A DNA stretch of 64,000 nucleotides, from NCBI RefSeq assembly GCF_022201045.2, contig NC_068556.1:22301501-22365500 (forward strand). The letters are read 5' to 3'. This DNA comes from Citrus sinensis. Taxonomy: Eukaryota > Streptophyta > Magnoliopsida > Sapindales > Rutaceae. The notes under the pieces are model-generated. The model was not told where the DNA came from. It did not search any database and worked only from the letters and a program-made list of their open reading frames with translations. Made by a program: the position numbers and the translations under genes. Of this stretch, positions 12,827 through 46,430 are shown piece after piece (the first letter of the stretch is position 1; each line of letters opens with the position of its first letter).

Positions 12827-12870
<44 letters not shown>

Positions 12871-15035: not shown

Positions 15036-15148
15036 TTTTGTTGAATGTAGGAGGAAAATTAATCAAGTGATCGATATAAGTTCGAGAAAGATTTTATATA
15101 AGGATCGATGAGTCGTAATTGATGGGAATTAAGTTCACAAGATTAAGC

Positions 15149-15156
15149 TATTTATA
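15149..15156 (-). promoter_or_regulatory. TATA box of polygalacturonase 2
   Basis: The minus strand reads TATAAATA in the context CCTCTATAAATAGC, about 115 bp upstream of the start codon and homologous to the box of polygalacturonase 1. Confidence 0.7.
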
Positions 15157-17055
15157 GAGGCATTGATACTGATGTCTAAATTGGATTAGATAAGAAGGAA
15201 TAATGTAGGTTTCAAGAAATTAAACTGAAACTCAAAGAAATTAAGCTGTTGCGAAGCTAGAAGCCAGCTAGCTGGCTCTCCTACCGTCATACGTGTACCT
15301 ATGTTACGTAACTCCTAATGCGCAGCCTAGCGATAGCTCATATCTCCGGTTTGATCTTAAAATGGGTTACTAAAATATTATTGACGATGCTGACAATTTT
15401 GTAGTTATTTGATATTTTTCAAAAATATTTTGAAGTTTTGTTACACCTCAATACTTGTTGTATTCAATTGAGATTAGGCCTAAATTTAAGTATATGATTA
15501 ATGATAATAACCTTTTAAATGATCATTTTACCATTAACGTAAATGATTCATTTAGCTAGTGATGCAAGTACAGTAACGTAGTATATTTACACATGATGAT
15601 TGATGAATGAACGCCCGCCCACCAATTAATTGCTTACTATTGAGTGAATTAAGAAACAATTCATCATTTGAATTTCATGATTAGTCAATCATATGTACAA
15701 TCAGCAAGAGGCTGTTGACGTTGGAATTAATCAATGCCAGGGCCTCTCTCCCTCCATCCATCGGCGGTTAATTAAGACACAAGAAATTGATTAACCCTTT
15801 CTTTTGTGTTAGAGAAGAAGGCAATAAAGTAATGCTCTCTTAATTTTATAAAGGTCGTTCCGGTACTTTGGTCAATCGGGGCAGAGCCATTTTGATCAAT
15901 TGCTGCGGTTGTTCTATTTTATTCATTTTTTCCTTATGTGACAATTTTCCTTCTGTATATACATACATCCCTTATAAATTCACTTGACCAATCAGATGCG
16001 TGGTATCTTCTAGATTTCGTTTTACCTTTTCAAAATACCTGATTTTCCCGCCTCACGAGGATCGATTTAAGACTTTGTTGAATAATTACTTAATAAGATG
16101 ACTTGAAATTGAAGAACCAAACATAAAATAAATCAAGAATCACCAAATCCAAGATTCCTGATAAACTGGAAACTCCCTGGAAGCTATCCTCATAGCCGAG
16201 TAACTTAATAGCTTTATTATGAGCCTAAAAAAATAGCAGAATTTGGCAAAACTTCAGTAAAATTCACCGTTAATAATCGAGTTTGATGGTTTTGTCACCG
16301 GTTTTGAAATGACACACAACCTTCTGAGACTATCTGATTTACCTCACAGAATTAATGTTGACTGTTGATTCAATTAAATTTCATTTTACCTGCACATATG
16401 GCCATGTATTAATTAAGGTAATAATTAAGACGACTGGTAGTGCACATATGATAAAAGTTAAGGACGTCACAGACACATTTGACAAGATTGAAAACAATTA
16501 TACTACACATATAAAGATATAATGAAAAATTATGATCATTACGTGCATGTAAATATGGAAAACGAATCCTAAACTATAGTTCGCTTGTTCATTCTATTAT
16601 GTATATTTGCAATAATTAGATTGGCATGACAAACTTGTTGTTGTTTTTTTTCTGTTGATTAATGCCATTGTAGAGTTGTTTGGTTTTCTCATTTTATTTA
16701 TTTCAGCATCAAGAAGACACCATATAATGACGAGTGAGGAACGTCGATGTATATAATTTTAGTTAAATGAATGTAACGCACCACTGAAATTATATACTCT
16801 TCTCGATTAATTGTTTGGCATTGTTTCATCTCTTTATCAATGTATTCATTTAGTTGGTGCTTGGAATAAGTATTAAATCTGTATGTTGCGACATCTTTGT
16901 ACCGTAAAAAGCCTGCTGGCTGAACAATAACATGTCGAAGGGATCAAAAATTACTTTAATCAAGAAAAGCATCAGATAATAAAAAGCAACTCATTGAAAT
17001 GAAATAATGCTTGTGTTACAAATAAGTAATGTACAACAAATTTTTGTTTAGTTAA
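15157..17055. other. Intergenic region between polygalacturonases 2 and 3
   Basis: No gene is seen. The first ~650 bp share the polygalacturonase upstream blocks (TAGGTTTCAAGAAATTAAAC near 15207; CGCCCGCCCACCAATTAATT near 15610; GCCAGGGCCTCTCTC near 15735). From about 15.9 kb onward the sequence is AT-rich without recognisable features. Confidence 0.6.
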
Positions 17056-18541
17056 TTACAAACAACTATTTGGTTGAACCAAGCCTAATGCCTCCCCAAT
17101 TACATTATTACAAGATGATTTAGCCTCTTGTTTCAAGTGCCTCAAATGTACATTATGTAGTCTTATCCCTTTGCAAGGGTATTTGCTGCTACAATCAAAC
17201 TTTATAGCGATTGGTGTTGCAGATGTTCCTCGAATATCTTGATAAATGACATCGCTGATTTTTACTCCTGATATCTAATTAGAATAAAAGAAATAGATAT
17301 TACAATAATACTCTTTATATTTATTTTTTTTTATTTTTTTATCAAATAATCATTTAGAGAATTTCCGTACCTGACCAGGACAATTTAAATTGTGAGGGCA
17401 GTAGTTTTGGTCAATAATAATGGGATGTTGAACATTTTGCATAAGAGCATCAATGAAACGAATGCCTTGTACAAATCCATTGCTGGGCCTGGCCCAGGAC
17501 TTTATTCTAAGCCCATTTGTGGTACCTGTAAAAACTGTCTTGAAAACTGTGACATTTTGCACCCCTTCCTCATCCAAATCCTTAGCTAGGCTCCCAATGC
17601 TGCAAATCAAAAGGCACATCGGTATCCATGAAGTTAATATGTACCCTAGTAATAAGGAAACCAAAGTAATCAAAATAATAACGTAAATGTGTCTTGTAAA
17701 ACCAACCTAATGCCATGACCAGGGCCGCATGTGACACGTTCAATCCACAAGTTGTTGGTGCCAGGGCCAATGGAAATGCAATCATCCCCAGTTTTGATTG
17801 AGGAGCTCTTGATAATCACATTTCTCGATTGCTGGACGTGTATACCGTCCGTGTTTGGGCTGTCGCCGGCAGCTATGATCTTAGCTCCTTCAACGAGCAC
17901 GTCCTGGCAACGATTGATCACAATGTGATACATCTGGCTGTTTAATGACAAGAGTCCGTTGATCCTGATGTTGTTGGATTTGGTAATGCTCAAGGTCTGC
18001 ACCCACAAAGGCATATATTAGCTAGTTTACTAAATTGTCATGACATTATGAGGTTAAGGAAAAGTTAATAATGTAAAATATATAATACCGTGGCTCCATT
18101 GGGACAATTAGAGCCTGCTGCGGTCTTACAAGCCCACAACGAAGTTCCCTTGGCATCAAGTGCTCCACCGATGATGGAAACATGGCTAACACCTTCAAAG
18201 CTAAGCCAATTGTTGGCTTGACCCAGTACGCGGTAATCTGTTGGAGCCACTAGTGTTCCGTTAATCAGGAAAGTAATAGACGGGCTTTTGCATTCGCTTC
18301 TGAAGGCCACGGAGCCAAGCAAATATCTTCCTTTTGGTACATATATTGTGGCTGATTCGTTGGAGGCACAAGCTGCAGCCCATGCTTTGGCAAATGCCTG
18401 CGTGGAGTCCGTGATACCATTCCCTTTGGCTCCACATCTTAGTACGTTGTAGATTGTTGATGTTGCAGATGAGTGGAGTAAGTTATTGGTACCGAGAACA
18501 AGAAGAAATGCATAAAGAAGAGTACTGAAGAACTTATCCAT
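17056..18541 (-). CDS. Polygalacturonase 3 (glycoside hydrolase family 28)
   Basis: Four exons on the minus strand: about 18089-18541, 17707-17996, 17371-17599 and 17056-17274, giving 396 aa. The exon 1 donor is placed so that phase is kept and may be off by one base. A secretory signal is present at residues 1-26. The motifs SPNTDG, TGDDCISIG, GPGHGIS and RIK are intact, so the enzyme should be active. Exon 1 is the most diverged of the three genes: it has LRCGAKGNG where polygalacturonase 2 has LRFGAKGNG, and FLINGTLVAPTDYRV. The TATA region is weakened to TTTAAATA at 18703-18710. It is the most upstream gene of the minus-strand array. Confidence 0.95.
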
Positions 18542-18702
18542 TTTTTTCTGAGATTAAAAATATTGGAGGGAATTTAAGTGATGAATAAGAAGAGAGATGA
18601 TTCAGATGATGGTATTTAGCTAGCTTTGGAATAAGTTCAAGAAATGTCTAAGCATATATCGATGAGTTTGTATTGAATGTGAAAAAGATTGAAAGATTTA
18701 GC

Positions 18703-18710
18703 TATTTAAA
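18703..18710 (-). promoter_or_regulatory. Diverged TATA box of polygalacturonase 3
   Basis: The position matches the TATA boxes of the two sister genes but reads TTTAAATA, one base off the TATAAATA found there. It lies about 162 bp upstream of the start codon. Confidence 0.5.
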
Positions 18711-21049
18711 GAGGCATCGATGCAGATTTTTGGATTAGATAGGCATAAATAGTGTAGGTTTTAAGAAATCTAATTGAAACTCAAAGAAATCAACGCTGGA
18801 GCTAAAGCCTAGGCAGCTAGCTAGAAAGCTCTCATACTTGTCCCAGTATTAGGTAATTAACTCTTAATCCACAGCCTTATTACTAGCATAATTAATATTA
18901 TTATATATGGAAAACATAGGGCCAGATTATAGCTTGGTTAATTAATTTGTGTGGTTGGTATTTTGCTAGGGCATCATAAAGTGAAAAATAGTGGACGAGC
19001 ACATCCACTGATAACAATGATAATGATGCAAAGAAATTTTTGAAACACATAACATGATTTTATTTGATAGTACTATTAGAATCATCCCATTTATTTATTT
19101 TTTCCTTTGTCAAGAAACACTCAATTATATCTGTTTCAGTTATTGAATAACATTTCGAAACACTTTACCAAGAGAAAATAAAAAGTTCTGTTCTAATAAT
19201 TAAGACTATACAGTATTTTGTAACAACGATAGTACTGTAATCTAGCCTTCTTTACATTTGACCATTCGACCGTTAATTTTGAAGACTTATTTAGCCAACA
19301 AATTAATTAATTGCGTAGTATTTAGTTAATCAGAAAATAATTCATTATTTCCATGGTTATCCGATTATGTATATGTACATCCAATAAGCTAGGCCGTTAA
19401 CGTGGGAGTTAATCAATTCAGGGCCTCTCTTAATTCTGAATTATATATTACTTTTCTGACTATTGACAACCTGCCTTCATCTTTACGGTGTTTTTAATTT
19501 ATTTTTTCTTTTTCCCTCTTCTTTTCTCTTTAATTGATTAATCTCTCCTAATTCGTTTACTCTAACTCATTCTTGTGATTTTGTTATTGAGTTGTGCATT
19601 TAATCAGAGAATTACAACTTGTGATGGCAGATAATTCGGCTGTCTTAAATTAATTATATTGAACCAAATCGTCTTTTAATTTGGCAATACCAGAAACCGA
19701 TTGCTTTTACTTTGATTGAAGTTTAGTGAATTAAAATGTTATAATTAGTACTCAATTTTGTACTTGGTTTAATTACAAATCAATTGAGGCGATTAAGTTT
19801 GTTTACATGATGTGCTTTGAACCTCCCATCCATGTTAATGATATTATATTGCAGCTTGCAGGTCAACTAGTAGCTTGTTAGAGGGACATTACTTCAACAA
19901 AACTCAAGTCGCCGTAGTATAACTAAATTAATCAACATTATTCCTTCCGCGGTTACTTAAGAAACAATTAAGTTGAACGAATGTTTTTTCGTAGCCAGCC
20001 AAAAGTTAAGTTAACATAACATTAGCTTCTGATCATGGACATTTTGCAATTGCCGTTAGCGATCGATCATTGTTATTTTGGTGAATTGCTGCTGTCCGAA
20101 GTCGTCGTAGTTATAATTACTTGAGAGAGTATTGCTAACAATTCCAAAATTTTTATCCCAAATCATTTAAGATGATTTTTTAGGATAAATTTTAGTTGAA
20201 CATTATTAATCGTTTATTTTTTTTAATGTGTTTAGGTATCCAAGTTAAAATATTAGGCTATTGGATGAAAAGACATATCCTACTTGTAAGTCTCAAGAGG
20301 GTTTATTGTATAAATTAATGTGAGACACAACTTAACAATTCTTCCTTGGATGAGAAGCCACTATTGAACCCTGCTCCTTTCATCTGACACATGCAAATTG
20401 TTCCATCACCGCATTCTAGCTATTAAGGTTTAGCTCTAATATCATTTATTGAGGAGTTGAGTCTAAGAATTCTTAACATTCAATCTAAAAGACTAACTTA
20501 TTAAGTGGAAAATTCTATATATCTTACTTTTAAGCTCAAATTTGTCGTATTAATTTACTAGCTAACACAATTCTACATTTTACTTTTCAAATTTCATTTT
20601 AATTTGAACCAGTTATTTCTCAATTCTACAGAGTTTGCACTTCAGGGTGGGCCTATAGCATCTTAAGAAATATTAAATTAAATAATAAGAAGAAGGCGGC
20701 ATCACAAACTTGCATCGAAACCTCTTTGGAGCGATTACAGTAATTCTCTTATTCGCAGAGGAAGATTTCTTGGTGAGTGATCACTTCTTTCAATTAATTT
20801 CTATCAGGCAGTGAACGAAGAAGCACGATAAATTTTTTCGTTTGTTCACATTTTGTAACGCCTTTGATTGTTAGATGGATCTTTTTTTTTATTTTTCTAA
20901 TTTTACATTTCTTTGTTATAAGGTCGTGCAAAGTTTTATGGAAACTTTAAGATTATTATTTTTTAATTGTATGACACTACTACTCAAATTACAATTCATT
21001 TAGATGAGATTATAACTGATATTTACAATCAGACAATTATTGGGATTAA
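18711..21049. other. Gene-free spacer between the polygalacturonase and TMBIM-like arrays
   Basis: The first ~750 bp retain the polygalacturonase upstream blocks (TAGGTTTTAAGAAATCTAAT near 18757; GTTAATCAATTCAGGGCCTC near 19409). Beyond that the sequence is AT-rich. Around 20690-20790 a short GC-richer stretch ends in a donor-like GGTGAGTG, but no open frame or homologue supports a gene there. Confidence 0.5.
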
Positions 21050-22950: not shown

Positions 22951-23853
22951 ATGCTTCTTTCCTGGTCAATTGATATATATCTATTGGAGGTAAATTTGTC
23001 TTAATTAAGTGAACATATGTCAATTTTACTTATGAGAATTAGTTTTCGCAGATGTTCAAGTTCAACCCAGCTCTTGTTTCTTCTGTACTTCTTCCTAGTC
23101 TCAAAATTTTCTATCAAGCTGAAAAGCTGCTGAAGGCTTTGATGATCTGATGACTATATAGCGATGATCACGGTACCTTTTATTGAAACTTCTAAGGATG
23201 ATTTCAGTAGACAAGTATTGATGATCACAGCATCAGCTGATCTTTATAAAGATCGGAATATAGTAAATTTAGATCATAACATTTACATTAGGGCAGCACA
23301 ATGTTCATTTATTCATGAGATTAAAGATTAAGATAAGTATTGAGACTGACGCTCAAAGATGTTAAAAGCAGAAAACGTTTTAACTTAACAGGACTTTAAT
23401 AGTGTACTCTTAGTATTGCGAAGAGGTCATGGGTTAAAATCTAGACAATAACTAAAAAATAAAAATCTATATATACTATATGATCAACGACTGAGATCTG
23501 GTGCTGAATTGATTTTTTTAATTAATTAAATCTTAATCTATATATGTACAAGTAATAGAAAATTATGAAGAGAACAACAAATATTAAAAAGTTGAGCATT
23601 AACTCCAATCCATATGATCACAAGCTTGGATTATACACAAAAGGTCGCAGTGCCTATAACTAAATTGATCAAATCTTTCCGAGATTTACTCGGACATGAA
23701 GTAAATTATTATCAGACCGTGCACCAGAACAGTCGATAGAAACCCTAAAAAAGAGAAACCCTTCACAAATTGAAGGCTTCTTCTTGTGCTTTCTCTTCAC
23801 CATCATCGATCACTTCCTCAAAGCCCCTAAAAGTAAATAAAGAACCGACAATA
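22951..23853. other. Spacer between T1 and T2
   Basis: AT-rich sequence without a supported gene. The last ~150 bp before T2 contain AACCCTAAAAAAGAGAAACC and are probably its promoter and 5' UTR. Confidence 0.5.
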
Positions 23854-25889
23854 ATGATATCAAATCGGACCGGAATTAATCCGGCCATCTCAGTTCCATT
23901 TCACCCCATCACATCTCCTTCTTGGCCATGCTCCGTTTTCAAGGCAGATCTTGCTCTCCCAGCGGCCTGGTTTCACCACAAGAGCCTCTCTCTTCTGCCA
24001 TCACCAAAACCCTAAAACTTTCCCCGCAAGTTTTCCCCAGAAAATCATAACCTCCATCCAAGAGCGAAAATCATCAACCAACCCTGCTGCCACACATGTC
24101 ACCGTCAAAGATGAAGTGGTCTTAAGCAGAAATGAAAAGAAAAAACGAGATAAGGCGTTGAGATTGAATTTTATAAAGAAAGTATATATTTATTTAGGTT
24201 CTCAGTTCTGGTTCACTGGTCTTGTTTACACAGTATTTAAGATCGCAGGCCACACCCCAAATCCAGCGCTATCATTCAGCGCCAGCGGCTCCTCAGTTGT
24301 CCTGCTTGCTCTTGGGTTTTGTATGTAATTGCTAACCGTATCTGTTTGGTCTTTAGATAATCTCATTGCTTTTCTAATTTTATTGTATATTAGTTTGTTG
24401 AAGGTGTTAACCTTTCGCTTATCGTGGTTTCCCTTGGTATTATAGAGTCATAAACTCTTCCCACAACAGAATTAGTCGGAGAACACATAATTTTTCTTCT
24501 TGTTTTGTGCCATCTCGCTATACCTCGTCAGTTTGTGGGCTTGTATCCCCATAATTGACAAAATAGGTATTAATGTTACGACAACAAATACAATGTGAAC
24601 TTAAATATTACATCAAAGTTTATTCGCTTTGTTTTTCTTATCAAACTTAGTTTAAATCACCTAGTACAGTCATATTTTCGAATAAATCATGTAGACAATA
24701 TGATGTTTTCATGTAAATAATATCATGTCAGAGTTTGTCCCTCTATTTTTTTTTTTTTAAAATCAAACTACAGGTTAAATCATCTTGCACAGTTATAATT
24801 TTTTAGCCTCTACTGCCAGACAATCATACCTGGATTACTCACTGTTTTATTGCCGTCTCTTATCCCCTCATGTTTATCATATTTTCTAAATAGATGTAGA
24901 GGACATGTATAAATTATACAGTATAATTACATAATCTAGAGTGTTTTGATATATTTTTTTTGAAAATATAATAATATTATTTGGGTCTCACCATTCTTAA
25001 TTAATTCCCGAAATCTTGGCAGATTATACTTTGTACGACTCCAAATGGAAATCCATCAACTCTATGTTTCTTGGACTTTATTCTCTGGCTACAACTGTCC
25101 TGTTTGGAAGAGACTTAGCCATTTTGAATGGTTTGTACGCTTGCCCCCATTTAAAATTTCTCATTAATTGATTAAATTTTCTTCATATATCTTGTCCTCC
25201 CAGGAAAAGCAATGCTTGCATCAGGAGCAGCAACTTTAGCCATAGTTGTTTCCGTAACAAAACTCGCTTTCTGGGAACCTGAAAAGAAACCCATGGCATT
25301 GGAATTTCGTCCATTGTTTATCATGTTGACTTTACCTGTTCAAATCATTGCTGGCTGTATCCAGGTCAGTTTTGTTTCTCAAAGTTTAACTAGATCAACT
25401 AAGTAGTCTAATTATTTAAAAAAAAAATTGAACTTTAAGTTATATTGGGGAATGTACCTCTTGGGCTCACTGTAAAGAGTTAAACCAATTGGGTTATCAT
25501 TTTAGGATTAATACCTACGGGCACTTTTCTACTGAAATGAATATTTTCTAAATATGGACATGGTTGTTGTTTGTATGCAGATATGGGCGCCAGGTCCAAT
25601 TTCTACTGCAATTTATCATGGAATCACTATTATTTCATTGTCAAACATTGTATTTCATCAATCTAAAAGGCTGCTGAAAGTTTCTTATGAAAATGATAAA
25701 GGCTTTAACTCTGATGAGTATAAAACAAGGACATGGCTGAGCATCATTCTCCAACGCTCTACCAATTTCAACAAAGGGTTTAACCCTGATGAGTATACAG
25801 TGGCGTCCGTACAATTATTCGTGAGCATAGCTCTCCTTTTCTGGACACCACTGATGACTATAAGGCAACTGCCGGTGTACATGGTTTAA
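23854..25889 (+). CDS. T2: TMBIM (Bax inhibitor-1/LIFEGUARD)-like membrane protein, N-terminus frameshifted
   Basis: Exons are about 23854-24320, 25023-25130, 25204-25364 and 25581-25889; introns are GT-AG and phases agree from exon 1's second half onward. The ATG at 23854 opens a presequence (MISNRTGINPAISVP) homologous to those of T7 and the L22 gene. The frame needed to reach the membrane domain differs by one base, and the switch lies around 23935-23960. No in-frame ATG exists in the downstream frame, so this copy is probably broken or uses an unseen splice. The membrane part starts at LRLNFIKKVYIYLG, matching the RWGFIRKVY start of LIFEGUARD proteins. Exon 4 has an internal duplication (KGFNSDEYK and KGFNPDEYT) and lacks the family's conserved TM6 and TM7 aspartates. 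Confidence 0.65.
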
Positions 25890-28120: not shown

Positions 28121-29216
28121 GAAAATTTCCTATACATCAACAATAAGAAATATAATGTAAGCTCAGGTATGTACGCGATTGAATATTGCGTACATTATTG
28201 GGATGTTAGGCAAATATTTAAGCAATCTAGAAGTAAACCATTGGAAAGTAGCCAAACATGTCTTGCAATATTTACAGATAATAGAGATACATGCTCACGT
28301 ATTGGAGATCAGATCAGCTTGAGATTGTTGGATATACTGAATCCGATTTATTGAATGCCAAAATACCATGAAATCCACTTCGAGTTACATCCATCTTTTA
28401 GTTAGGGGTGTTGTATCCTGGAAGAGTGTTAAACAGTCTCTTATAGCCTCTTTTACAATGGCAATAAAGTTCATAACATGTATAAGACATCTAATCAAGA
28501 AATATAGCTGTAAAATTTTGTTACAAGGTTATGCATAATAGATGATATTGATATACCACTCAAGTTATTTTATGTTAATAAGTCAGTAGTGCTTTATTAC
28601 AATAACAATAGGAGCTCAACGAAATCAAAGCATATAATCAAATTCCTAGTTGTTAAAGAAAGAGTTCAGAGTGGGCAGTTGTCTACAAAGCACATTGGCA
28701 CAAACTTCATGATTGTAGATCTACTTGCTAAGGGATTACCGTCCAAAATGTTTCATGAGCACACCACTCATATGGGTGTCATATTATTATAGGAAATTTA
28801 GTTTCACTGAGAGGTTGTTATTTTAGATGCTCGTATGATATAGACATTTTTCAGTTTATGGATATCTAAGGCTATTTTCTACATAAATAAGGTTTTGGTT
28901 TATTCATACTTTGATTTTGATATGGTTTAATATTACTAAGATTTAAGGTGGACTAGTTAGAACTAGGCATGTTAAGATCATATTGGATAAAATATTTATG
29001 TTACACATCTACATCATTATCCATGTCATTAAGTTGGATTGACATAATGGCCATTAATGGGTCGAGTTACGACAGTTGTAACAAAGGCCGCTTTGATCAT
29101 ATATTAGTATGATTGATGGTATAGATACATTTCGATAATGACAATAAGATTGAGCTCATAAAGATATTTTCATAAAATATGATTATAAGGTTACACATAT
29201 AATCCAAATGAGAGAT

Positions 29217-29509
29217 TGTTGGATTTTTAATCCAACATTGGGATTATATGTGAATAATTATGTGTTGCAGGCTGTCATATAAGGTTAAACTCAATTAAAA
29301 GTGATCTATTAAGGTTTTCAGTAATTTGAACTTTAATGTATCTAATGGAGTGTGAACTTTTAATATATAGATACTTAAGGATAATTTCTATTTTTATGAT
29401 ATGTTAAAATATGAATACCTAAAAATAATAGGAACAATTATCCATATAAGTGTCCTAGGTCATATATAACAGTTTATTCTCTTACGACATCTCGTCATCA
29501 GAGAATGCA
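29217..29509 (+). repeat. Copia 3' LTR
   Basis: Begins TGTTGGA directly after a purine-rich tract and ends near GAATGCA. Its body matches the 5' LTR segment by segment. T3 exon 2 sequence resumes within ~40 bp. Confidence 0.8.
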
Positions 29510-30701
29510 GTAAGAAAGTTAAAAGATTGTCTAAGATAATTAAATTTGATGCTTCTCGCCAATATCCCCCGCTTCCAAGGACGTGGCATCATTTGTAAAA
29601 CGAGCATAATGGAGAGCACTATATCTGTTGAACTTGTCAAAGTGGCTATTGTTGCACTTGGTCTAATCTTGGCTGATATAAGACTAACCCATTCATATGG
29701 TATGCATTCTTGCTCCATTTGACTAAATTTTTCATGTATTGAATGATTTCATATATATATATATATGAATAATTTTGCTTGGAGCATTAATTTTAACCTT
29801 AGCTATGTCTGCAATTGTAATGGGAGTCACTTTCTACAAATTTGTTATGAAGCGCAATTACTTGAGCCCGCCCACATCTTCCCAAACAATGCCTAATTTT
29901 CTTCTCATGGCTAGCATTATCCAAGTCAGTTATCTAACCTTTTTTACTAATGTGTTAATAATGATTTCAAATATATGGAGCGTAGAGTCACGTTTCGTTG
30001 CAATGGGGAATTGATGGGTAATATATATCTAAATTTAATTACGTGTGACAAATTGCAGATTGTCACCCCATGTCCTATTACATCTGCAATTGAAATGGGA
30101 CTTTGTGTTGAGATATTCTCAATGTTTCTGGTGTGTCACAGCTGGACCGTCTTGAAGCCTTATGATTAAGATGCTTGCTAGTCCCATTATGTGCCATACG
30201 AAGGTCTCTGGGATGCCGTCCAGCTTCTTTATAAGCTCAATTTGAGTCTATATTTATGCTATTAGTTAAATAGAGCTAGCTAAGTTACTGCATTGGCAGA
30301 TTATATACATATTTTGGTACTAAAAACACATAGGTTCCTTTAGTTTTCTTCAGATCAATTTCACATTTATAATTCTTGCTTTCTTCACTAGTGCGAAGAT
30401 AGAAGTTTAGTATCGAGAATGGGAATGGGGTAGGAGCTTAGGAGAATATAATCCCCTTTCTGGCTATCCATATATTTAAATTACAAAGGACTTTATTGAC
30501 AAAAAAAAAAAAGATTTTTGGGAACCACCAGTTTAATTCATTTTTCTACAAACCCCAAGGACTTAAATGTAAATATAACTATTGTAAGGTTGAGACTTGG
30601 ATTCTCGGCTAACGTGATCCTTGCGCTCAGCCGCTCATCGTTTCGCATTAAATTACCATAAGAAAAAGAGGGGGCAAAAAAAATACAGAAAAAACCGTAA
30701 A

Positions 30702-31307
30702 ATGATGATATCCAGCACGACTCGTATCCTCCTCCCCTCTCCGCCGCCAACATGTTTGGCCACCAGGCAACTGGGTCACAACCCATTAATTCTCCGCCGG
30801 GATCAGGCTGGTTTTACTTCAAGAACAGATTTTTCTCGCAAACTTTCTCACACCCACAATGAAATTTTTAATTCCAAGAAAATAATCAGCAGTGCCCAAA
30901 AGAGAGGAATATCGCCGCCGAACAACAGAAACAAGACCAACAAGAAGGCAGAAGTGTCTGCTTCAGCTCGATATCTGCACATGTCTGCTCACAAAGCCCG
31001 AAGGGTAATTGATCAGATTCGTGGACGTTCTTACGAGGAAACCCTTATGATACTCGAACTCATGCCTTATCGAGCATGTTATCCCATTTTAAAATTGGTT
31101 TATTCTGCAGCAGCAAATGGTATTCACAATCTGGGTTTCAACGAGGCCAGTTTAGTCATCGTCAAAGCGGAAGTGAACGAGGCTTCTTCTGCTAAAAGAC
31201 CGAGACCTAAAGCTCAAGGGAGGGTTCATATGATCAAAAGACCCACTTGTCATATCACTGTTGTGTTAAGAGACATGTCTTTAGATGATGAATATGCGGT
31301 TTCCTAA
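30702..31307 (+). CDS. rpl22: Nuclear-encoded plastid ribosomal protein L22
   Basis: A single open frame of 201 aa. Residues ~1-85 are a Ser/Arg-rich, acid-poor targeting presequence. Residues ~86-201 are a plastid-type L22: [56 protein letters not shown] and [16 protein letters not shown], all strongly matching chloroplast-encoded L22. L22 binds 23S rRNA in the large subunit and lines the exit tunnel. The presequence matches the N-terminus of T7 almost block for block (ATRQL, then GFT.RTDFS.KLSH, then KRGI.PPN), and sequence downstream of the stop matches T7 intron 2 onward. Start chosen: ATG at 30702 (a second in-frame ATG at 30705 aligns with the T7 start). No intron is seen. Confidence 0.95.
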
Positions 31308-31739
31308 TTACAGATTTCACTTGTATTTCAAGTTTGCTTAGTTATCTTTTGCTGTTTTTCTAATGAGTAACGTCCCGTTCTTTGTTTTTTTTTTTTTTTT
31401 TAAATTTTTTGTTATTCATTCCAAAAAAAAGGAAAGAGTATAAATATAGAAGCAGGTCGGAAGCTAACTTCAATTGAATATAATTGTTTGCGGGTGCTGA
31501 TTTGATTGACTCTTTTTGGTAAATTTTGTCCTTGATAATCGGCACTTAATATGTTTGATGAAAAACCTGAAAGAACTGCCGAGGTCAATGCCAACCAACG
31601 AGTCTTCATTAAATTCATAAGATAGATTTAATTGTGCCAAGTGGTTAATCAAAGTAAAACACTGGATTCACGAATAAGAGAAAAGACAAAAACTAGAGTT
31701 ATTGGAGAAATTGAACCGAGGCTTTTTTTCTTGCTATAT
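31308..31739. other. 3' flank of rpl22
   Basis: AT-rich with a T-run at 31387-31402. Probably the 3' UTR and polyadenylation region; no other gene is seen. Confidence 0.5.
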
Positions 31740-32520
31740 TTACATTTTCTTTAAGTTCAGTTATAACCTAAGGTCTATTCAAATTAACCATAATTACTTC
31801 CTATTGCCTGATGTGATATTCAATGGTCGTGACAGGAATGATCTTGCTCCCAACATTAATTCCAATCTAAGCAATGTTTGTTCTATTAAGGTTCAGTGCT
31901 ACCTTCGAGGTTGTTGTGCAGGACGGGGACTTGAGCTGTTTTGAACCATCCAAGTACTCCTCTCTATGACCACGGCCATCCTTGCTGATTTTCTCCAGGT
32001 CAGTTGTCTTACTTTTCCGGGCAATTATAGCTGTAACTTGTTGTTAGACTCTCTTGTTTTACGAACAATTTACAATATGAAATGAAAATCTTAGTTGCGT
32101 CATAAGTAATCATCTACATGCCAATGCATACCTATGTATCTTTTTGTGATGGGGTAGTACATGTTGCTAGTAATGTATACCACATATAATTATGTTCCTC
32201 TGCAATTAATTATGTGCATTATTATGCAGATTTTAACTGAGGGCCAAGTACTACTGCAATTGAAACTGGATTCACTGCTTTGGTATTCAGCATTTTTGCA
32301 TTCTATGATGCCGGAAAGATCTTGAAGTGTTGATCATGATGACTATTATGCGGCCTCTACTCACCTTTTTGGGAACTTGTGTGAAATCTTTATCTGCTCA
32401 ATCAAGCTCTTAGCTATGCTATCTGGCCTTTTTATCAGTGCTCAGCCTTACGTTTATATGACTCACTTGTATGGTTGTATTCTAGACACAGACAATTAGA
32501 CAAGTTAGTTGCGATTTGAT
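31740..32520 (+). pseudogene. T4: 3' remnant of the TMBIM-like gene that hosts rpl22
   Basis: From about 31740 the sequence aligns with T7 intron 2, then with exon 3 (31838-31998, including GAGGTTGTTGTGCAGGACG and GAGCTGTTTTGAACCATCC, with frame breaks). After an intron, it aligns with exon 4 (32230-32460, AATTGAAACTGGATTC and ATGATGCCGGAAAGATCTTG, with a stop straight after). The order and distances are those of T7. Exon 2 and the first membrane segment are absent; their place is taken by the L22 coding region. The copy is non-functional as a TMBIM protein. Confidence 0.75.
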
Positions 32521-33049
32521 TAAAGGCTGTGTTATATAGTGAGGCTAAGAGCTATTTACTTAATTGATGCATTCATGCAATATTAACATAAGACGTTGAT
32601 ATTTAGTTTTTATAAAACAAAATTTAAGCTTGAGATCTTGAATAAGTGACATAGTATTGTTTGATGGGATTTGAGAGAACATGAGGTTCTAGAAGTATGT
32701 ATTCTGGAGTTAAAATTTATTTAGAGTACTTGTACTTGAGAATTCCAAGTGGAAAATTTAAAAAAGTTTGAAAAATATGGGAAAATCTGTAAAGTTTTGG
32801 GCAAGATATTTGGATTAGCTCATTTATTCTAGTTATGTCAGTTGAAGTTAGAAAAATTTGCTCTTAAAGTTTGAGGCAGAGTTCAAGTTCTGACTTTCTG
32901 TCCTTTGTCTCACTGAAGCAAGATTGTTTTTGCTTATTCTCTTTTCTGTTCACTGGCTGTTTGTAATTGTAACATTACAACTAAATTTGGTTAATTTTCA
33001 ATTTTCTTTGTGCCCTTTTTTTGTCTTTTTGGTTCAACAATTATTACAT
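32521..33049. other. Spacer between T4 and T5
   Basis: AT-rich, no supported feature. An exon 1 for T5 with the first membrane helix is not recognisable here. Confidence 0.5.
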
Positions 33050-36967: not shown

Positions 36968-37228
36968 TTTAAATCAAGAGAGGATTCTGTTGTAAGAAAA
37001 TTACTTGTCTTTATAATTTACGAAAAAGGAAATAAAACAATTAAAAAATTATAATAACAAAAGTAAAGAAGCGAGTAGTATAAGAAAATACATATATTAA
37101 AAAAATATATAATAACAAAAGCAGAGAAGCCAGTAATATAACAATATATATACACACACATAAAACCAAACCCTAGAGTATACGTGAAGAAAAGAAGAAG
37201 AAGAAGAAGAAGGAAAAAAAAACCTAAA

Positions 37229-39607
37229 ATGATATCTAACCAGACCCGCATCCGTCCCTCTCCGCTGCCAACATCCTCAGCCACCAGGCAGCTGGCTCAC
37301 AGTCCGTTACTTCTCCGACGAGTTCGGGCAGCAGGTTTTACTCCAAGAACAGATTTTTCTTGCAAACTTTCTCACGGCCATGAAAGTTATAATTTTCCGG
37401 AGAAAATAATCGCCACTACCCGAAAGAGAGGAATACGGCCACCAAATATCAAACAGAGTGAAGTAGCCGGAGCGGCTGCCGGCGCTGGTGAAGATGAAGA
37501 GGAAGAAGAAGAAAAGAAGGAAAGTGGTGAGCCAGTGGAGGATCGGTTGAGTGAAGAAGAAAAAAAGAAAATTTGTGAGTTTGCGGAGAGATTGGGTGAG
37601 GAAGAGAAGATAAGAATTTTTGAGATTTTGATGGGATTGAGCGAAGAAGAGAAGAGGAAACTTAGTGAGATAGTGGAGGAATGGAATTCTGGAGGGGAAG
37701 ACGGGAAAATTGGTGAGCTTGTGGAGGGTTTGAGCAGAGAAGGGAAAAGGAAACTTTGCGGGGTCTTGAAGGATTTGAGCGACGGGGATAAAGAAAAGAT
37801 AACAGAGTTATTGGAGAGATTGAACGAAAAACAAACGAGGAAGCTAATCGAGCTTGTAGAGAGCTTGAGCGAAGAAGGATTGAAGAGAGTCAGTAAGCAT
37901 GTGTTGGCGAGCGGCGGAGTTGAAAGCAACAATGCATTTGAGTTGCTGCTTATAGATGGATTAAGCAAAGAAGATAGGAAAAGAGTTAGAAATTTTGCAT
38001 GTAGCGTGGCCATTTTCAAGATTTTGTTGTGCCTGCGTGAAATTGTTAAGGTTGATGATGGAATCAGCAAAGAAGAGTTGGTGAAGGATATTAGACATTT
38101 TTGGGAGGGAGAAAATAACACAATTGCTAAATTCCTGAAGTCATTGGAAGTAGATTATCAAGATGAAGTAAGAGAAATTAGAGAGTCCTTGGTAAAACTT
38201 AAAGAGTCTACGGAAAAAGAAAAAAAGAAAAGTAATAAAGATTCTGTGGAAGGGTCCCGAGATGGTGAAACCGTGAAAATTAAAAAGATTCTGAAGAGAT
38301 GGGGCTTGAGCGAGAAAGATATGAAGCCCGCTTTAGAGTTAGTGGATGGATTGAGTGAGGGCAGCAGAGTGAATTCGAGAAAGTTCCTTGAGAGCTTAGA
38401 GGAAGAAGCCGCTAAGATTTTAAAGCTTAAGGATTTGGCCAACGGCTTCTTAAACAAAGATCTTGAGAAGTATATTAAGAAGGCCTCCTTGAATCTTTCG
38501 CCGAGGCTAGAATTTATCAAAAAGGTTTCTGTTCATTTAGGGGTTCATCTCTTATCGGGTATTGTTGCTTACGCATCCATGAAGATGTGTCCCCCAAAAG
38601 CTGCGGCCTTCAAGAAAAATTACTCTCATTTTCTATCTCCTCTGCTTTTTCGTAAGTAAACTATTTGTAACGCCTTTTTTTTATATACGTTTTCATCAGA
38701 TTTGTTATATATGCCGTTAGTATGTTTACATTTGATTGTGTATTTTGTCAGTCATACCAACATGCAAGGCTTTCAAGAAAGAAATATCCAAGCAAAAATA
38801 TGATTCCACGGCCGGGCTTCTCGTGAGTGCGGTTCACACTGCTTTTGGTGTATTCTGGGCCGATGTACACCTTGCTAATTCGAATGGTTTTGTATTCCTG
38901 CTGGATTTACATTTTCTTCATATCAAGTTCATGTTAATTCAAACCAAAACTATAATTAATTAATTACTGCCTGATATCAATCAATGGTTGTTCACAGGAA
39001 GGATCATGCTCGCGGCATTACTTACAGCCACATATATCCTTTTTCATGTAAGTTTGGGAGCTGTCTTTGAGGTTGTTGTGAAGGACGACGGGGATCTGAG
39101 CTGTTTTAGACCATCCAATTACTCCCTCTCTATGACCATAGCCTTCCTTGTTAGCTTTCTCCAGGTCAGTTGTATTGCTCTTTCGAGCGATTATAACTCT
39201 AATTCATTGTTAGTAAGAGTACAATATTAATTTAATTATCTTGTGTTTTAAGAACAATTTGTGATATAAAATGAACATATTTTTGTCGTATAGTAAGTAC
39301 TCGTCTCCATGTTAATGCGTACCGACATATCTTTTTATGATGTATATGTATAGTGGATGTTACGGTGTGCTATAATTTTGTTTATCTGAAATTGATTTTG
39401 TAGATTTTCAACCGAGGGCTTCTTATTACTGCAATTGACGCTGGATTCGGTGTTTTGGTGTTCACCATGTTTGCGTTATATGATGCCGGGAAGATCTTGA
39501 AGCGTTCTGACAGTGATGACCACCACAAGGCGTCTGCTCATCTTTACTGGGACTTGTATGGCCTCTTCATCTGCTCAGTCAAGATGCTATCTATGCTACA
39601 TTCATAA
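37229..39607 (+). CDS. T7: organelle-presequence TMBIM-like protein with 15-residue repeat domain
   Basis: Exons 37229-38651, 38752-38886, 38998-39164 and 39404-39607 give 642 aa; all phases agree and no stop interrupts. Order: presequence (~1-85, nearly the same as that of the L22 gene), acidic run EDEEEEEEKKE (~90-100), then about eight tandem 15-residue units from residue 107 with consensus LSEEEKRKLxELVEG. A charged helical linker follows. From ~428 there is a TMBIM (Bax inhibitor-1/LIFEGUARD)-type membrane domain: FIKKVSVHLG, exon 2 ending WADVHLANSNG, exon 3 RIMLAALLTATYILFH, exon 4 FALYDAGKIL and HLYWDLYGLF. The two aspartates of the family's TM6 and TM7 positions are kept. Plant TMBIM proteins are normally ~240 aa without presequence. 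Function is not known; a membrane role in plastid or mitochondrion is inferred. Confidence 0.85.
37547..37915 (+). repeat. Coding tandem repeat, ~8 units of 45 bp (15 aa)
   Basis: Within T7 exon 1 successive units begin LSEEEKKK, LGEEEKIR, LSEEEKRK, (a diverged 16-residue unit), LSREGKRK, LSDGDKEK, LNEKQTRK and LSEEGLKR, each followed by a hydrophobic-E-hydrophobic end such as ELVEG or ELLER. The units are amphipathic and strongly charged, probably helical. Remnants of the same repeat occur in T8 (around 41410-41480). Confidence 0.85.
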
Positions 39608-41174
39608 ACACACAGATTTGGGGTACCAAATGGAAGTACCTTTCCAAGTTGTTTGATTTTATTTTTTCAGTTTTGCAAAGAAAATGGAGTACCTTGCAGC
39701 ATAGTTATATTACAGTTAGGGATTTACTAAAGGTCTGGATTCTTAGAATTATACTATTTGTACAAGAGAGATATTGATCCCAATAATGACTCAACCCTCA
39801 TCCCCAATGTGAAGGGAGGGACAACCCCAACCACTCAGTGGCTGTCTTAATTACTAAGTGAAAGACATTGAATTGACTGCTTTGTAAGAAGTTTTTTATT
39901 TTTATTTTAAAACGGAAAAATATCACCCCCGAAACATTTTTAAATTTTGATATAAAAAAATGACAAATTTATCTTTTAGTGAAGATATTTCTAATTTTTA
40001 AATATATAAAGAAAGTTTCAAACAACTCTAATTTATCTTATCTCACAAATGTATTAGTATTAATAGTAAATAAATAAAACCATTTTATCATACCAACCCC
40101 CACTTCTCAGTTAGCCTCACTGTAAATTTTAAAATAATCTTAATCTCTCAATATACCCACATTTAATCTCCACTTTACTCTTATTGTAATTGTTATCATT
40201 TTTGTAAACGCCCTACCCTATAAAACTTAAAAAATCTGCATTAAAAAAATAAGCTCTAACAATCTTTCTCTTTCTCTTTGTATCATCAATGCCTCTCAAA
40301 AACGATTTATCATCAGTGCAGGTGGTTCAGGTGTGGGTTTCTTTTGTTAAAATTTTGGTTACTTGAATCCAATTAGAGTTATATATTGATGAAATTTTGT
40401 GGCGGCAGGTAATGAATGGATTTGCCCCATGATGCTAGCGTTGTAGCAGCAATTTTATCTTGAATTTTGTCCTTTGATAAAATTGTAGTTTCGGAATAAT
40501 GCATAAGCTTAAATGCTCACTATAAAATCGAGAACAGAAATTGAGGTATCAAAACTTTAAACTTACTTCTTGTTAAAAGAAATTAGGCTTCTTCAACTGC
40601 ATTCCTTTATATTATTTTTAATTTTCGTACACCATATACCAATATCACTCGAAGCAACAAATACTAATGATCTTTATCTTCTACACATAGATTTTTTTTT
40701 TTCTTTTCCGTACTTGTTTATTGTTTTTTAAAAATGAAATCCTTGTCTGCTGTTTCTTTTAATAACTGTATTTTTTAAAAGTTTATGAATGAGTGCACAT
40801 AATTACACAATGTTCAAAGTATATTATAGAATATAAATAATCTCATTCTTTATAAAAATATAAAAAAAATTATTAATATTAATATATGGTTAGAATTTAA
40901 CTTTTTTTTTAATCTATCAATCCCTCTTTATGCAGAAGAATTTTGCTTAAAAAATTCATATCCCAGTAAAAGACCTATGAAAGAAATTAATAAAAATGGT
41001 ATTGGTAGTGGACCAGAATTTTTACATCTGACGAATTGCATATATTTCAACCAATAAGAATCTACAAACATAAATGTGATACATCCTAAAACCTTGAAAT
41101 ATTTCTTCTTCTCTTTAAAATCCTAAACCGTAATGTATTTGTGCTTCAAATACTAACAAGAAATCCTCCAATTA
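39608..41174. other. Spacer between T7 and T8
   Basis: AT-rich intergenic DNA. The T7 3' UTR probably occupies the first ~150 bp. No gene or clear element is seen. Confidence 0.5.
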
Positions 41175-42805
41175 ATGCTATCTAGATCGACCCCTACTCT
41201 CTGGTGCTCACATGGTCCGGCTCCGCCACCGGTGTGGGTGACAACCCGATACATCTCCGACGGGGTCGAGTTGGTTTCCGTCAACCAACCCTTCTTGCAG
41301 GCCCCTCGCGTCAATAAAATTATTACTATATCCAAGGAAATTTTTGTTGGTCCTTTGAAAAAAGGAAAATAGGAAATCGTTATTAACTTCAAATAATAAC
41401 AGTGAAAGAGAAGTTAGTGAGATTTTGGGGGTACGTAGCAGTGAAGAAGACAAGAAGAAAATGATTGGGTTTTTGGAGGCCTTCTGTCAAGAGATATAGA
41501 TGAAGCATGCAGCGGGGTTCGGCGAAGGGTATAAGCTATAGATGTTTATGAGGCCATGAAGAGCAAGAGCGAACCTTTTGGTCGCTTCAGCTTCAGCGAG
41601 AGGGAAATCAAGAAAATTAAAAGATTTTGCCGAGTGCTTGGTGAGAGAAGAAATGAACAAAATTCGTATGGTTATGGAGGGAAAGAGTGAACGAGGATCC
41701 AGAATATTAATGAGCTTGTTGCTTGCTTGAGCAAAGATGACAATAAGAAACTTGGTGATCGTAAAAGGCTAGAGAGAGTAAAAAATGAAGAAAGTTAGAA
41801 AGTGGCACCCTCAACACTCTCAGACTTGCACTTTTCAATGTGGCTATTGCTGCCTTTGGTGTAGTCTTGGCCGATGTTCGCATTGCCAACTCAAATGGTT
41901 TGCACTCCAGCTACTTGCTAGCTCCATTTTTTTTAATTTTTCTTAGGTTCTTCATGTAACTTCAAATTAATCTTTTTCAATCGTTAATTTGCTCGATCAT
42001 CACCGCATTAATCATGCTGGGAGCATTAAATTCAACTTTAGCTCTGTTTCTTCTACAAATTTCGCTCGCTTACGCCCTGATGGTTTTCAATAACAAGGAC
42101 TTGAGCAAATTTGAATCAGACATTAATGCTCACTATTCTGTAACTACTCCTGCTATCATCAATAATTTTATCCAGGTTAGTTCTTCTTATTACTGTCTTG
42201 TAAGACTACTAATGCTGCTGCTTTTGGTTAATGTTTGTTCTGAGAACAATTTGTGGTGAACTAATTAAACTATTGATGGGTCCCCTCGCGACACATGTCA
42301 ATTACTCATGCCATATCTTGTTCATTATGTGCATTACACAATGCAGGTTATCAACCCAGGCCCTATTACTGCTGCAGTTGACACTGGACTCAGTTGTATA
42401 CCATTTCCAGTACCAGTAGTTTCTAACATCGCGATGGTCTTCAAGGGTTTTTACAATGATGACGACTATATGGTGGCGTCCATTCATCTTTTCTGGGGAT
42501 TGTACGGCCTCTTTATCTGCATAATCAAGGCTTTTGCGATGCTATCTTGCGTCTTAATAATCTCAAGTAGGAGTTTTGGGATTGCTATCTGGCCTCTTTA
42601 TCAAGGCTACGGGGATGCTATTTGGTTGAGCAGTTTGTTTATTAAACTACAGTATTACATTCACTATACCTTCATGTATATGGGGCCAAGAATGTCCTTT
42701 GACTCTGTGCTTAGCCTTGGATTTATATCGTCAGCTGTATTTTCGACAAATATATTTCTGGGCACGTACCAGATAAACACATTACTCTTTGAACTTGTTG
42801 TCTGA
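41175..42805 (+). pseudogene. T8: TMBIM-like gene with broken exon 1
   Basis: The ATG at 41175 opens a presequence-like stretch (MLSRSTPTLWCSHG) that ends in a stop at about 41370. After it, decayed 15-residue-repeat sequence (SSEEDKKKMIGFLEAF) runs to ~41790 with several stops. Exon 2 (ending 41897, FGVVLADVRIANSNG), exon 3 (about 42013-42175, IMLGALNSTLALFLLQ) and exon 4 (42347-42805, VINPGPITAAVDTG, then DDDYMVASIHLFWGLYGLFI) are open. The first membrane segment is missing, and the exon 3 acceptor seems lost: ACCGCATTAATC stands where other copies have CACAG. Exon 4 continues ~65 codons beyond the normal end. Confidence 0.7.
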
Positions 42806-44206
42806 TCTTTCCCCTTATGATTAATTTTGCAATGCTGTTGGTGTCTTTGCTTCGGGGTCTTTCTTGCAGTTAAAGCATATCCGGTTTCTTGCTGCTAAAT
42901 AGTGCAGATATTTTGATTGACTGAAGTTGCTTGGTTTCTAGAAAATTTTTACAGCATGAATTCTGATCCGTTGCTATTGAAGGAACGTTTCAGTCAAAAA
43001 ACCAAGAACAGCCTTCTAGGCAAACGATAACGATTTAAGGCTATGTTTGGAAGGTAGAATTGGATTGAATTGGCTTTTAGGATTGAATTGGATTAAATTG
43101 AATTATATGTAATGCTATCTTTTGTTTGGTACAATATTAAACAGGATTATGTTAATTTAATTTATTAAAGTTAAATAATTATTTGAATATTATAATATTT
43201 TTAAATTATATTGATGATTATGGACTTTAATATTTAATATTCAATACTACTATAAAGAAATATTTGATTATTTTTATCTTTAATATTCAATACTAGTTTA
43301 GAGTAGTTTTCTAATCAGAGATTTTTGACTTTATTAAAGTCAGGAATCAGCTAATAGATAAAAAAATTTAGATTTTAATACACTATATGACAAAATACAT
43401 TGCATTGGAGTCTGTGTTTATTTTATCTTTTAGTTGATTCCTAACTTTATTAAAGTCAGAGTTTCCTGATTGGAAAATTACTATACTAATTTAAATAAAT
43501 TAAAGAATAAAATTTTGATATTTAATCTTAAATTAAAAATAATTTTAAAAAATTTATTGAATTTTTTTTATATTGTAAATAATATAAATTTACAGGTTAT
43601 AAAAATTATAAAACAAATTTTGAAGTTTAATTTTTATTAAAATATTAGGTTAAATAAAAAATAAACTAGTCATAAATAGGATAGAAACTTTTCGTTTAAT
43701 TTTCTCCCACTTAATCCCATATAAAAATATGGATTAATAATCTTATTAGTTTAAATAAAATTTTAACCTACTTAATAGTTCATGACAACTAAACATACTA
43801 TAAATTAAATTATTTTCTTAATCTCAAAATCTAATCCAATTTCACAATTTATCCAAGCTCCCAAACTTAGAATCCCTGTACTAGACAATAGAAATGTTAT
43901 AGACATGTAGCATAAAACAGTAATTTATTTTATTTTAGTATGAATCGAATCGACACACCGTTTTAATGCTCAATTCTGAATCAACTGATTTAGGGTTATT
44001 TTTAGGGAGCATCCCTTAGATTTTCCATATTTACACTTAACGTCAAAAATATGACCACAAGTACACTTGCCTCCCCTGTCGTTTGTATGACCATGCTTTG
44101 ACCGTTCTGTGACTCGTACAAAGACAAAACTACCCCTAACACAAGAATAAGGATCCATAATGTATAACATAATAGCTACAGCTTCGGTTATTGTTGATTC
44201 ATTACA
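42806..44206. other. Spacer with nested MITE-like inverted repeats
   Basis: No gene. At about 43039 the words GGCTATGTTTGGAAGG and, at 43850-43870, TCCAAGCTCCCAAACTTAG look like the ends of a non-autonomous hAT or Harbinger element. A second inverted repeat lies inside it (see separate entry). Confidence 0.4.
43285..43500. repeat. Inverted repeat, MITE-like, nested
   Basis: Arms at about 43290-43365 and 43425-43500 are reverse complements with mismatches, each containing GACTTTATTAAAGTC-like or ACTTTATTAAAGTCAG sequence and a TAATCAG/CTGATTG border. This is consistent with a short non-autonomous DNA element. Confidence 0.5.
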
Positions 44207-44645
44207 AGGAAAATTATCATTTGTATATCCTTAATTTACTCTATTATCAAAAATGCTACAACACTTTAAGGGTGTATTAATCGTCCACCATAAGTTGACA
44301 AAATGTATATGCCGTCCACCAAACCGTTACTTGCCGTTTAAATAGAATGAAATCATAGGGGTAATTTAGTCTTTTCATATGATACAAGTGATAATTTAAG
44401 GGTATACAAGTGATAATAAGCGAATTTAAGGATATACAAGTGATAATTTTTATTTACTTTAATTTAAGTTTTAAAGGTAAAATCGTCAATTTGCTATAAT
44501 TCCATTAACTTTCAAACGGCAGCTAACGGTTTGGTGATCAGCAAATAACTTTTGTCAATTTAGGATGGACAATTGATATACGCTTAAAGTGTTTTAATAT
44601 TTTTTATAACAGAGTAAATATAAGGTATACAAATGATAATTTTTC
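44207..44645. mobile_element. Mutator-like MITE, copy 1
   Basis: Long terminal inverted repeats of about 130 bp. The left arm holds AAAATTATCATTTGTATA, then ATCAAAAATGCTACAACACT and CCGTCCACCAAACCGTTA; the right arm holds their reverse complements. The flanks TTCATTACA (44198-44206) and TTCATTAGA (44646-44654) form a 9-bp duplication with one mismatch, the size typical of Mutator-like elements. There is no coding sequence. It is the same family as the copy at 47397-47813. Confidence 0.82.
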
Positions 44646-46430
44646 TTCATTAGAATGATGACAAAAATACCTTCAAGATACCAGTGTGACATAAAAATCA
44701 TCTTGGAACAGCAATCCTATAGCATAAATAACCTACAACTTTTACGCACACCACCCCCAAAATCATCTGCCTGGAAGAGCTAAAACTTATTACTAATTTT
44801 TTTTTGTTTGCTTTTCTTTTTGCTAGTTCAACAGTTATCCAATATGAAACCAGCACTGTACATATCCATTTGTAGAAAAAATAATAATTAAATCATGCAC
44901 AAGTATCTTAGCATCAACTTTGCAGTGTTGGAATAACTTTGTAATGGCACGTGAAAAAGGCAAATCATGCATCAGTATCCAAGGTAATGGCACAGCAAAA
45001 TCATGAAAAAGGTATCTTAAAATTAAACCACGCTTCGGTAACAATATTAATAACCACAATTTCATTCTTATTGACAGCAAAATAGCAAAACAGGAGTGCA
45101 TTACCACGAATGTCTAAATTAGAAGCATAAACCCTAAGTTAATAGTGCCACTACCACTATCTATATCAAATGGCAAAAGAATTACCAATATTATGGAGCA
45201 CAGACAACCACCCTTTTCAGCTTCTTCAAAACAACACCGAAAACCCATCTTTCCTCACAAAACAAACACATAAAATCACTAATTTCTAGCAAGCATTGGT
45301 TTATTTAGCTGGAGGAAATTTTAAGAAGTTCGATATAAACAACAACATCCACATTCTTCATATCATAACAGTGCTAAATCCCATTTTTATTCAACAAACA
45401 AACTCACATAAAACCCCCCAAATTTCTAGCATCATAAGGTTTGATTAGCTCACAACTTCATAAATCAGATTGTAAAAGTGACAAATGACAAATGCATCAG
45501 CTTCGTCACACACATCAACAAAGCCATTTTTATTTTCAATTAGCAAAAAATGCCCTCAGTTTCTTCAATAAATAACCGATTTCCAAAAAAACAACAATCA
45601 TTAGTTTCTAACATGTAAGGAGCTTTTCCAAAGACCAACCTTTTATGTTAGGATCCCTCATCAACTAGATCTAGGATTAGGTGACACCCCCAAGGTCAAG
45701 AACGCAAGACCCTTGTCGCAAGGGCCAACTTCAAAGGATCAACCTAACTCTAATATCAATTGTTACAAACCCATAAGGTAGAATTCAATCGTAAAAATAG
45801 ACTTGTAATAGAAGGGTGCTTAGGGGTTAATGAACTAACAACTAGTCTTCCACTTAGTTGATGTGAGATCCCAAAATTTTACATAGTTCTACAGCAGTCA
45901 TTTTTGACACTGGCCATCTGCAAAACTCACTCATTACCACCTTTGAGCCACGACCTAATTAATCTTTCGTCGTTCATGACTTTGATTATGCTTTGCATCA
46001 GTGACTAAGCAGCTTTTGCTTTTCTTTTCTTTTTTACTAAAATTGTCTGAATACGAATTTACCCTCAAACATTCATAGTTTAATAGTCTACGAAACAATA
46101 TTGAAAAGGTGGGGGAGGTAAGTGTAATAACGATCATACTTTCTATCTAAGTGGAAATAAGATAAATCGCATGGAGGTCCCTAAAAATAACCCAAACGAC
46201 TACAGTACAAAACAGCACAGTGAAAGCAAAAGTGACAAACCAATACAATCCTAATTCCTAAAAGTCGGCCAAAGTTAAAAAAACATTTATTGTGCGAACG
46301 CAACAAAAATTCGATCAGCTTACAGAATGCACAGACTGAGACACCACCATATACAAACATAGTTTTCTTGACAATGCTTCTTCATTTTTAGACCAAAACC
46401 TTAAAGCAGCACAACAGAAAAACCCAACAA
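44646..46430. other. Spacer between MITE and T9
   Basis: AT-rich; no supported gene. The last ~300 bp before T9 may be its promoter. Confidence 0.5.

Follow-up and report, generated by a model that had tools for sequence, protein, structure and literature searches.

A nuclear rpl22 gene in Citrus sinensis that probably arose by landing in a tandem Bax1-I gene copy

Described transfers and the Citrus case

The nuclear rpl32 gene of the Malpighiales Populus, Bruguiera and Euphorbia is described, in the available sections of two papers, as fused to a superoxide dismutase (SOD) transit peptide (PMC8018952, PMC4329224). The locus of Citrus sinensis considered here resembles that system, as far as those sections extend, in that a plastid ribosomal gene appears to have taken the front end of a nuclear gene and in that a duplicated donor copy is associated with the fusion. 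On the same accounts the donors differ: SOD is plastidial and its fusion has been proven in plastids by GFP, whereas the Citrus donor is of the TMBIM type and is known here by sequence. Unlike in rpl32-SOD, an intact sister of the donor lies 6.5 kb away in Citrus, and relics of the copy that received the insert flank it on either side.

Other precedents concern rpl22 itself. In the accessible part of a 2021 paper, the earlier nuclear rpl22 genes of Fabaceae, Fagaceae and Passiflora are listed with a novel transit peptide acquired (PMC8429499), and Salicaceae are also named among the rpl22 losses (PMC8018952, in the part available). Within the reach of these sources, the Citrus gene shares with them the identity of the gene, the move from plastid to nucleus and an N-terminal presequence; it differs in that the transit peptides there are termed novel, whereas in Citrus the presequence can be traced to its source. 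According to its abstract, a 2011 rpl22 paper reportedly found no donor for the legume and Fagaceae transit peptides.

The state of the plastid gene in Citrus and its relatives has been described in several ways. In the consulted part of the 2006 plastid genome paper, C. sinensis plastid rpl22 is called not functional; a frame shift is noted, 84 codons lie in the repeat, and more study is urged (PMC1599732). A further source, in the portion available, gives the Citrus plastid frame as 252-264 nt, conserved and transcribed, without terming it a pseudogene (PMC4232571), and in eight Ruteae plastomes the coding ability of rpl22 is reported, again in partial text, as lost (PMC9911629). Several plastid L22 proteins of other Aurantioideae, among the matches listed, have an intact domain, so that L22 there may be supplied by more than the nuclear copy alone. 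A report of nuclear rpl22 in Citrus, Rutaceae or Sapindales was not found in the best-ranked literature, a scope that leaves most subscription papers outside.

The window, the whole stretch of 64,000 nucleotides that was analysed (bases 22,301,501-22,365,500 of its contig, in a 300-Mb assembly of 11 contigs), contains a gene that probably is a nuclear gene for plastid L22, formed when rpl22 landed in exon 1 of one Bax1-I copy (T4), took over its presequence as the rest of T4 decayed, and came to serve the plastid by import. The Citrus case is a known kind of transfer with three features of its own, namely a presequence with a known source and an intact sister, a relic of the receiving copy behind the insert, and a possible later conversion.

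The fused gene and its presequence

The frame at 30702-31307 on the forward strand is intact and without an intron in the window; its 201 codons specify a presequence of ~80 residues followed by a complete L22 domain. It is located on nuclear contig C1 (24.8 Mb), adjoining T7, a spliced gene of the same Bax1-I family as T4. Its parts are as follows.

30702..30938, + strand: start codon and presequence of nuclear L22 (~80 residues), attributed to exon 1 of T4; 76% DNA identity to 37217-37446
30939..31295, + strand: plastid-derived rpl22 coding part, from alignment of plastid-type rpl22 genome fragments over 30939-31295 and Pfam Ribosomal_L22
31305..31307, + strand: L22 stop codon, from the translation

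Pfam, chloroplast L22 structures and grouping with Rutaceae plastid L22 agree in assigning the coding part a plastid origin. The Pfam Ribosomal_L22 domain covers residues 87-190 (3e-30), the NCBIfam family rplV_bact is matched above its cut-off (6e-28), and among solved structures chloroplast L22 is the best match (2.6e-45), with plant mitochondrial uL22m far behind (2e-12).

Presequences rich in Arg/Lys and poor in acidic residues are compatible with plastid or mitochondrion, and those of L22 and T7 are both of this kind, with 17% and 18% Arg/Lys, respectively, and ~4% acidic residues in each. This make-up is what speaks for targeting to mitochondria or to both organelles, in which case the gene would be no simple replacement of plastid L22. 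Such targeting is nevertheless unlikely in view of a mature part of the plastid type, of the separate mitochondrial uL22m that plants possess according to solved structures, and of prolines early in the presequence, which by eye argue against a long amphipathic helix. The presequence probably addresses the L22 protein to the chloroplast, and it is predicted to bring L22 into the plastid.

The donor family and the relic of the receiving copy

In a self-comparison of the whole window, 30689-30922 matches 37217-37446 in T7 at 76% over 240 columns (E=2e-40). Aligned in its full extent, the presequence region runs over 30660-30933 against T7 37192-37455, with the L22 start codon inside the match; the score of 227 compares with a maximum of 34.5 among 300 resampled sequences of the same dinucleotide make-up, and as proteins the presequences of L22 and T7 agree at 62% over 74 residues. 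The shared presequence that the first-pass annotation had proposed from a few motifs therefore lies far beyond chance. The exons of T7, as read from a four-exon model and from the protein identity of its spliced product, are:

37229..38651, + strand: T7 exon 1, comprising the presequence, a long acidic stretch and the start of the Bax1-I part
38752..38886, + strand: T7 exon 2
38998..39164, + strand: T7 exon 3
39404..39607, + strand: T7 exon 4

The spliced model has 642 residues and is identical over its length to the annotated protein WN943_028675 of Citrus x changshan-huyou. Its C-terminal 216 residues carry the Bax1-I/TMBIM domain (PF01027; 5e-15, 56.2 bits against a curated cut-off of 34.1), in agreement with the TMBIM-like identity first given to it; a Pfam scan of exon 1, alone and whole, yielded no match above threshold, with sub-threshold matches only. 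Between the presequence and the Bax1-I part, at 37460-38500, exon 1 contains a long acidic, repeat-like stretch of ~350 residues, which to our knowledge is unusual for the Bax1-I/TMBIM family.

A second match in the self-comparison lies downstream of L22, where 31728-32421 pairs with T7 38895-39598 at 69% over 730 columns (E=3e-77). With these matches on either side of the plastid-derived part (E=2e-40, E=3e-77), the donor gene of the L22 presequence is identified by sequence as T4/T7. The DNA behind the L22 stop codon can be divided as follows.

31308..31673, + strand: filler of other origin, 366 bp, from a search of the genome DNA
31674..31716, + strand: stub of T4 exon 1, 43 bp, matching T7 37788-37825; 0/300 resamplings as good; blastn E=7.6e-4
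31723..32421, + strand: decayed T4 remnant with intron 2, exon 3, intron 3 and exon 4 in T7 order, from alignment with T7 38890-39598
~31836-31998, + strand: exon 3 of the T4 remnant, from alignment with T7
~32230-32421, + strand: exon 4 of the T4 remnant, from alignment with T7

Gaps aside, the T4 remnant is identical to T7 at 76.3% of exonic (271/355) and 77.0% of intronic positions (241/313). The pattern marks T4 as a dead copy, a pseudogene, because exons and introns have diverged equally, the exons have taken four indels, three of them frame-breaking, and third codon positions show no excess of change. As these values lie close to the 76% of the presequence, they fit a single duplication as the source of both sides.

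Alignment with T7 also fixes the breakpoints. On the 5' side, similarity to T7 stops at ~30933 (T7 37455) and plastid similarity spans ~30939 to 31295; behind the gene, T7 similarity resumes with the exon-1 stub at 31674 and continues in intron 2 from 31723. The expectation that the downstream DNA would follow intron 2, exon 3 and exon 4 of T7 in decayed form was right for those segments, whereas the first match behind L22 proved to be exon 1. Survival of this stub at 31674-31716 contradicts the further proposal that rpl22 replaced everything from the presequence to intron 2, and indicates instead that rpl22 landed inside T4 exon 1; the missing stretch between exon 1 and intron 2 is best explained by a loss of its own. 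Part of the filler, 31474-31659, also occurs at C6:3807646-3807829 (76%). Plastid rps3 or rps19 beside L22 gave no match in window positions 29000-33000.

Gain of a promoter in the same event, as had been suggested, finds no counterpart in the flanking DNA. No T7 similarity was detected upstream of ~30660, and when upstream regions of ~500 bp from L22, T7, T8, T1 and T9 were compared pairwise, 0/10 pairs beat all 200 resamplings, the best being T8-T9 (17/200 as good) and T7-T1 (19/200). Capture of the promoter from T4 along with the presequence is possible.

A sequence of steps can be proposed from the layout of the locus. Plastid DNA with rpl22 entered exon 1 of T4, a local tandem Bax1-I (TMBIM-type) copy, at a point that the homology on both sides places directly behind the presequence-coding stretch and in the same reading frame. 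T4 lost its coding role, its middle gone and its exons 3 and 4 decayed, with the sister T7 intact 6.5 kb away. The fused gene would be expressed as a precursor whose presequence takes L22 into the plastid, and import of the nuclear product would leave the Citrus plastid gene free to decay. In three respects this account retains what the first-pass annotation had put forward: plastid-type rpl22 in frame behind the presequence of the TMBIM-like duplicate T4, decay of the rest of T4 downstream, with its four exonic indels, and an intact representative of the donor family next door.

Another way to view the locus is as plastid DNA that came by chance to lie in frame with a decayed duplicate and has no function. 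Plastid-DNA fragments (NUPTs), the same raw material as the Citrus nuclear rpl22, are common in the genome, the host T4 is a pseudogene, and the open frame alone is only moderate evidence of function, since in a simulation counting stops only, frames stayed open under random substitution in 185/5000 cases at 20% and in 895/5000 at 10%. The L22 and T7 presequences give a dN/dS of 0.79, which bootstrapping spreads over 0.41-1.60 and which does not demonstrate selection on the presequence, and the 98 codons compared with the majority of plastid fragments include 17 that differ in amino acid and 8 that differ silently, a count that does not strongly support constraint on the L22 part.

What makes a chance insertion quite unlikely is the integrity of the fusion, here and elsewhere. 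Its 603 coding bases are in frame, against four indels taken by T4 within 355 aligned exonic bases, and in place of the lack of intact coding capacity expected of an inert NUPT there is a 201-codon open frame with a complete L22 domain. Further rpl22 fragments are found on C3, C4, C5, C6, C8 and C9; the rpl22-like matches other than the C1 copy are partial, short or interrupted by stops, whereas the one on C1 is whole, forms an in-frame fusion and is accompanied by full-length relatives. A search with L22 returned 3518 proteins, of which two among the best 120 cover the whole query, P0003 (94%, from a cluster of 52 sequences) and P0004 (87%), which stem from public assemblies, and both carry the same full-length fusion of presequence and L22, intact. 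The other 118 of the best 120 cover 50-64% of the query, Rutaceae plastids first. An older presequence on other L22 genes, raised at first pass as a competing origin, did not appear when the presequence alone was searched, within a scope limited by protein length and shared words: only P0003 and P0004, L22 proteins with the same fusion, were returned.

Two of the genomic fragments, at C4:23957330-23960622 (L003) and C9:13396819-13399948 (L007), both break frame near plastid codon 84, which fits the reported shortened plastid rpl22 of Citrus. At C10:284000-287000 (L039), a plastid-like rpl22 tail with rps3 (the latter by eye) stands directly behind a run of N, the 1001 bases of scaffold C10 before 285001 being N. 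The plastid rpl22 of the same plant is absent from the assembly.

The start region of T7 recurs in other members of the array.

23853..24081, + strand: T1 start region, homologous to the presequence region of T7 (score 49; 0/500 resamplings as good against T7)
41170..41341, + strand: T8 start region, homologous to the presequence region of T7 and L22 (scores 68 with T7 and 76 with L22; 0/500 each)

The first 218 bp of T7 align from the ATG with T1. Compared with the L22 start region alone, T1 is not significant (49/500 resamplings as good), and presequence similarity of T9 is not significant with either L22 (46/500) or T7 (80/500). Because T1 and T8 share the presequence region, it is older than the fusion and passed from the array to rpl22. 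The reverse direction, in which the presequence arose in L22 and was later acquired by Bax1-I genes, is allowed by T7 and L22 alone, which give no reading of direction, but is exceedingly improbable given the start region carried by T1 and T8 (0/500 for T7-T1, T7-T8 and L22-T8) and the T4 remnants in T7 order behind L22.

Searched against the genome, the T7 protein yields 10 matches, a lower bound as tblastn adds further weak copies in the window. Nine are on C1 and one on C9; eight of those on C1 fall in the window (the four exons of T7, L22, T4 exon 4, T8 and T9), and the ninth, ~15 kb to its left, reads by eye as an ordinary member of the wider family. At C9:10862404-10865607 (L027) there is a lone piece of T7 exon 1, 188 bp long (75%), that takes in the end of the presequence. 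A protein search with T7, over the 8000 candidates sharing most words, found two.

The window also contains other repeated and single-copy features. Two long palindromic elements, at 44206-44647 and 47396-47819, are 83% identical in inverted orientation; each is like its own reverse complement, and by eye they look like non-autonomous transposons. On the minus strand, 8514-18837 holds some three related genes in tandem, with 76-77% identity, whose reading frames by eye resemble polygalacturonases, and 49166-50350 holds the gene of a BSD-domain protein (Pfam BSD, 2e-11).

Relatives, age and a plastid-like central tract

The relationships of the L22 part were examined in a tree of 35 sequences, made up of 32 of the 118 listed matches and the three nuclear proteins, with ultrafast bootstrap. 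The three nuclear L22 proteins form one clade with a support of 100. When codons 97-147 are omitted, this clade joins the Rutaceae with UFBoot values of 90 (all sampled Rutaceae) and 87 (without Dictamnus); over the whole domain the values are 63 and 58, respectively. The L22 part thus appears, with moderate to weak support, to nest among Rutaceae plastid L22. Its grouping with Rutaceae plastid sequences suggests a transfer independent of those in legumes, Fagaceae and Passiflora, one that would date from within or near the base of Rutaceae, before the three nuclear sequences diverged.

Unexpectedly, the centre of the gene differs sharply from its flanks.

30984..31144, + strand: tract near-identical to plastid-type rpl22 inside the diverged L22, its ends set by visual inspection of the alignment

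Compared with seven plastid-type fragments from six genome places, two more on C5 having been left out, the window L22 differs from the plastid type at 1/151 scored sites in codons 97-147 and at 37/194 in the flanks (Fisher 2.7e-9); for third positions the figures are 1/51 and 14/62 (p=0.0014). Both p-values are optimistic, as the segments were chosen with the pattern already in view and twelve further sites were set aside where the fragments themselves may have decayed. Four residues of the window L22, 99, 130, 141 and 144, are those most frequent among Rutaceae plastid sequences (12, 8, 12 and 12 of 12, respectively), and at these positions P0003 and P0004 agree with each other on different residues. 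A tree built on the flanks unites the window L22 with P0003 (97). Over the centre alone the window L22 has exactly the sequence of plastid L22 from at least four Rutaceae, and P0003 groups with P0004 and not with it (73).

One reading of this mosaic, for which the odds are close to even, is that ~150-160 bp in the centre of nuclear rpl22 may have been replaced by plastid-type DNA through gene conversion, long after the transfer. Since the tract has roughly the length of a single short read, an artefact of assembly polishing, with the tract overwritten by plastid reads, must be excluded. Polishing has nevertheless not made the plastid fragments alike, given that the two copies on C9 share 94.7% identity and that the C3 and C4 fragments differ at 28/137 central sites. 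The C4 fragment is itself a mosaic, with a decayed 5' part and with 10/52 sites differing from C9b in the centre and 0/79 behind it, and could be a product of either conversion or polishing.

For Citrus, an intact nuclear rpl22 that carries a presequence offers a direct candidate answer to the question posed by a plastid rpl22 described, in the part of the 2006 paper available, as apparently non-functional (PMC1599732). The steps of a gene transfer can be read at this locus, from the landing site through the losses to the surviving read-through, with the wreckage of T4 still in order. If conversion of the central tract is real, renewal of a transferred gene by plastid DNA, or by nuclear fragments of it, can continue after the move.
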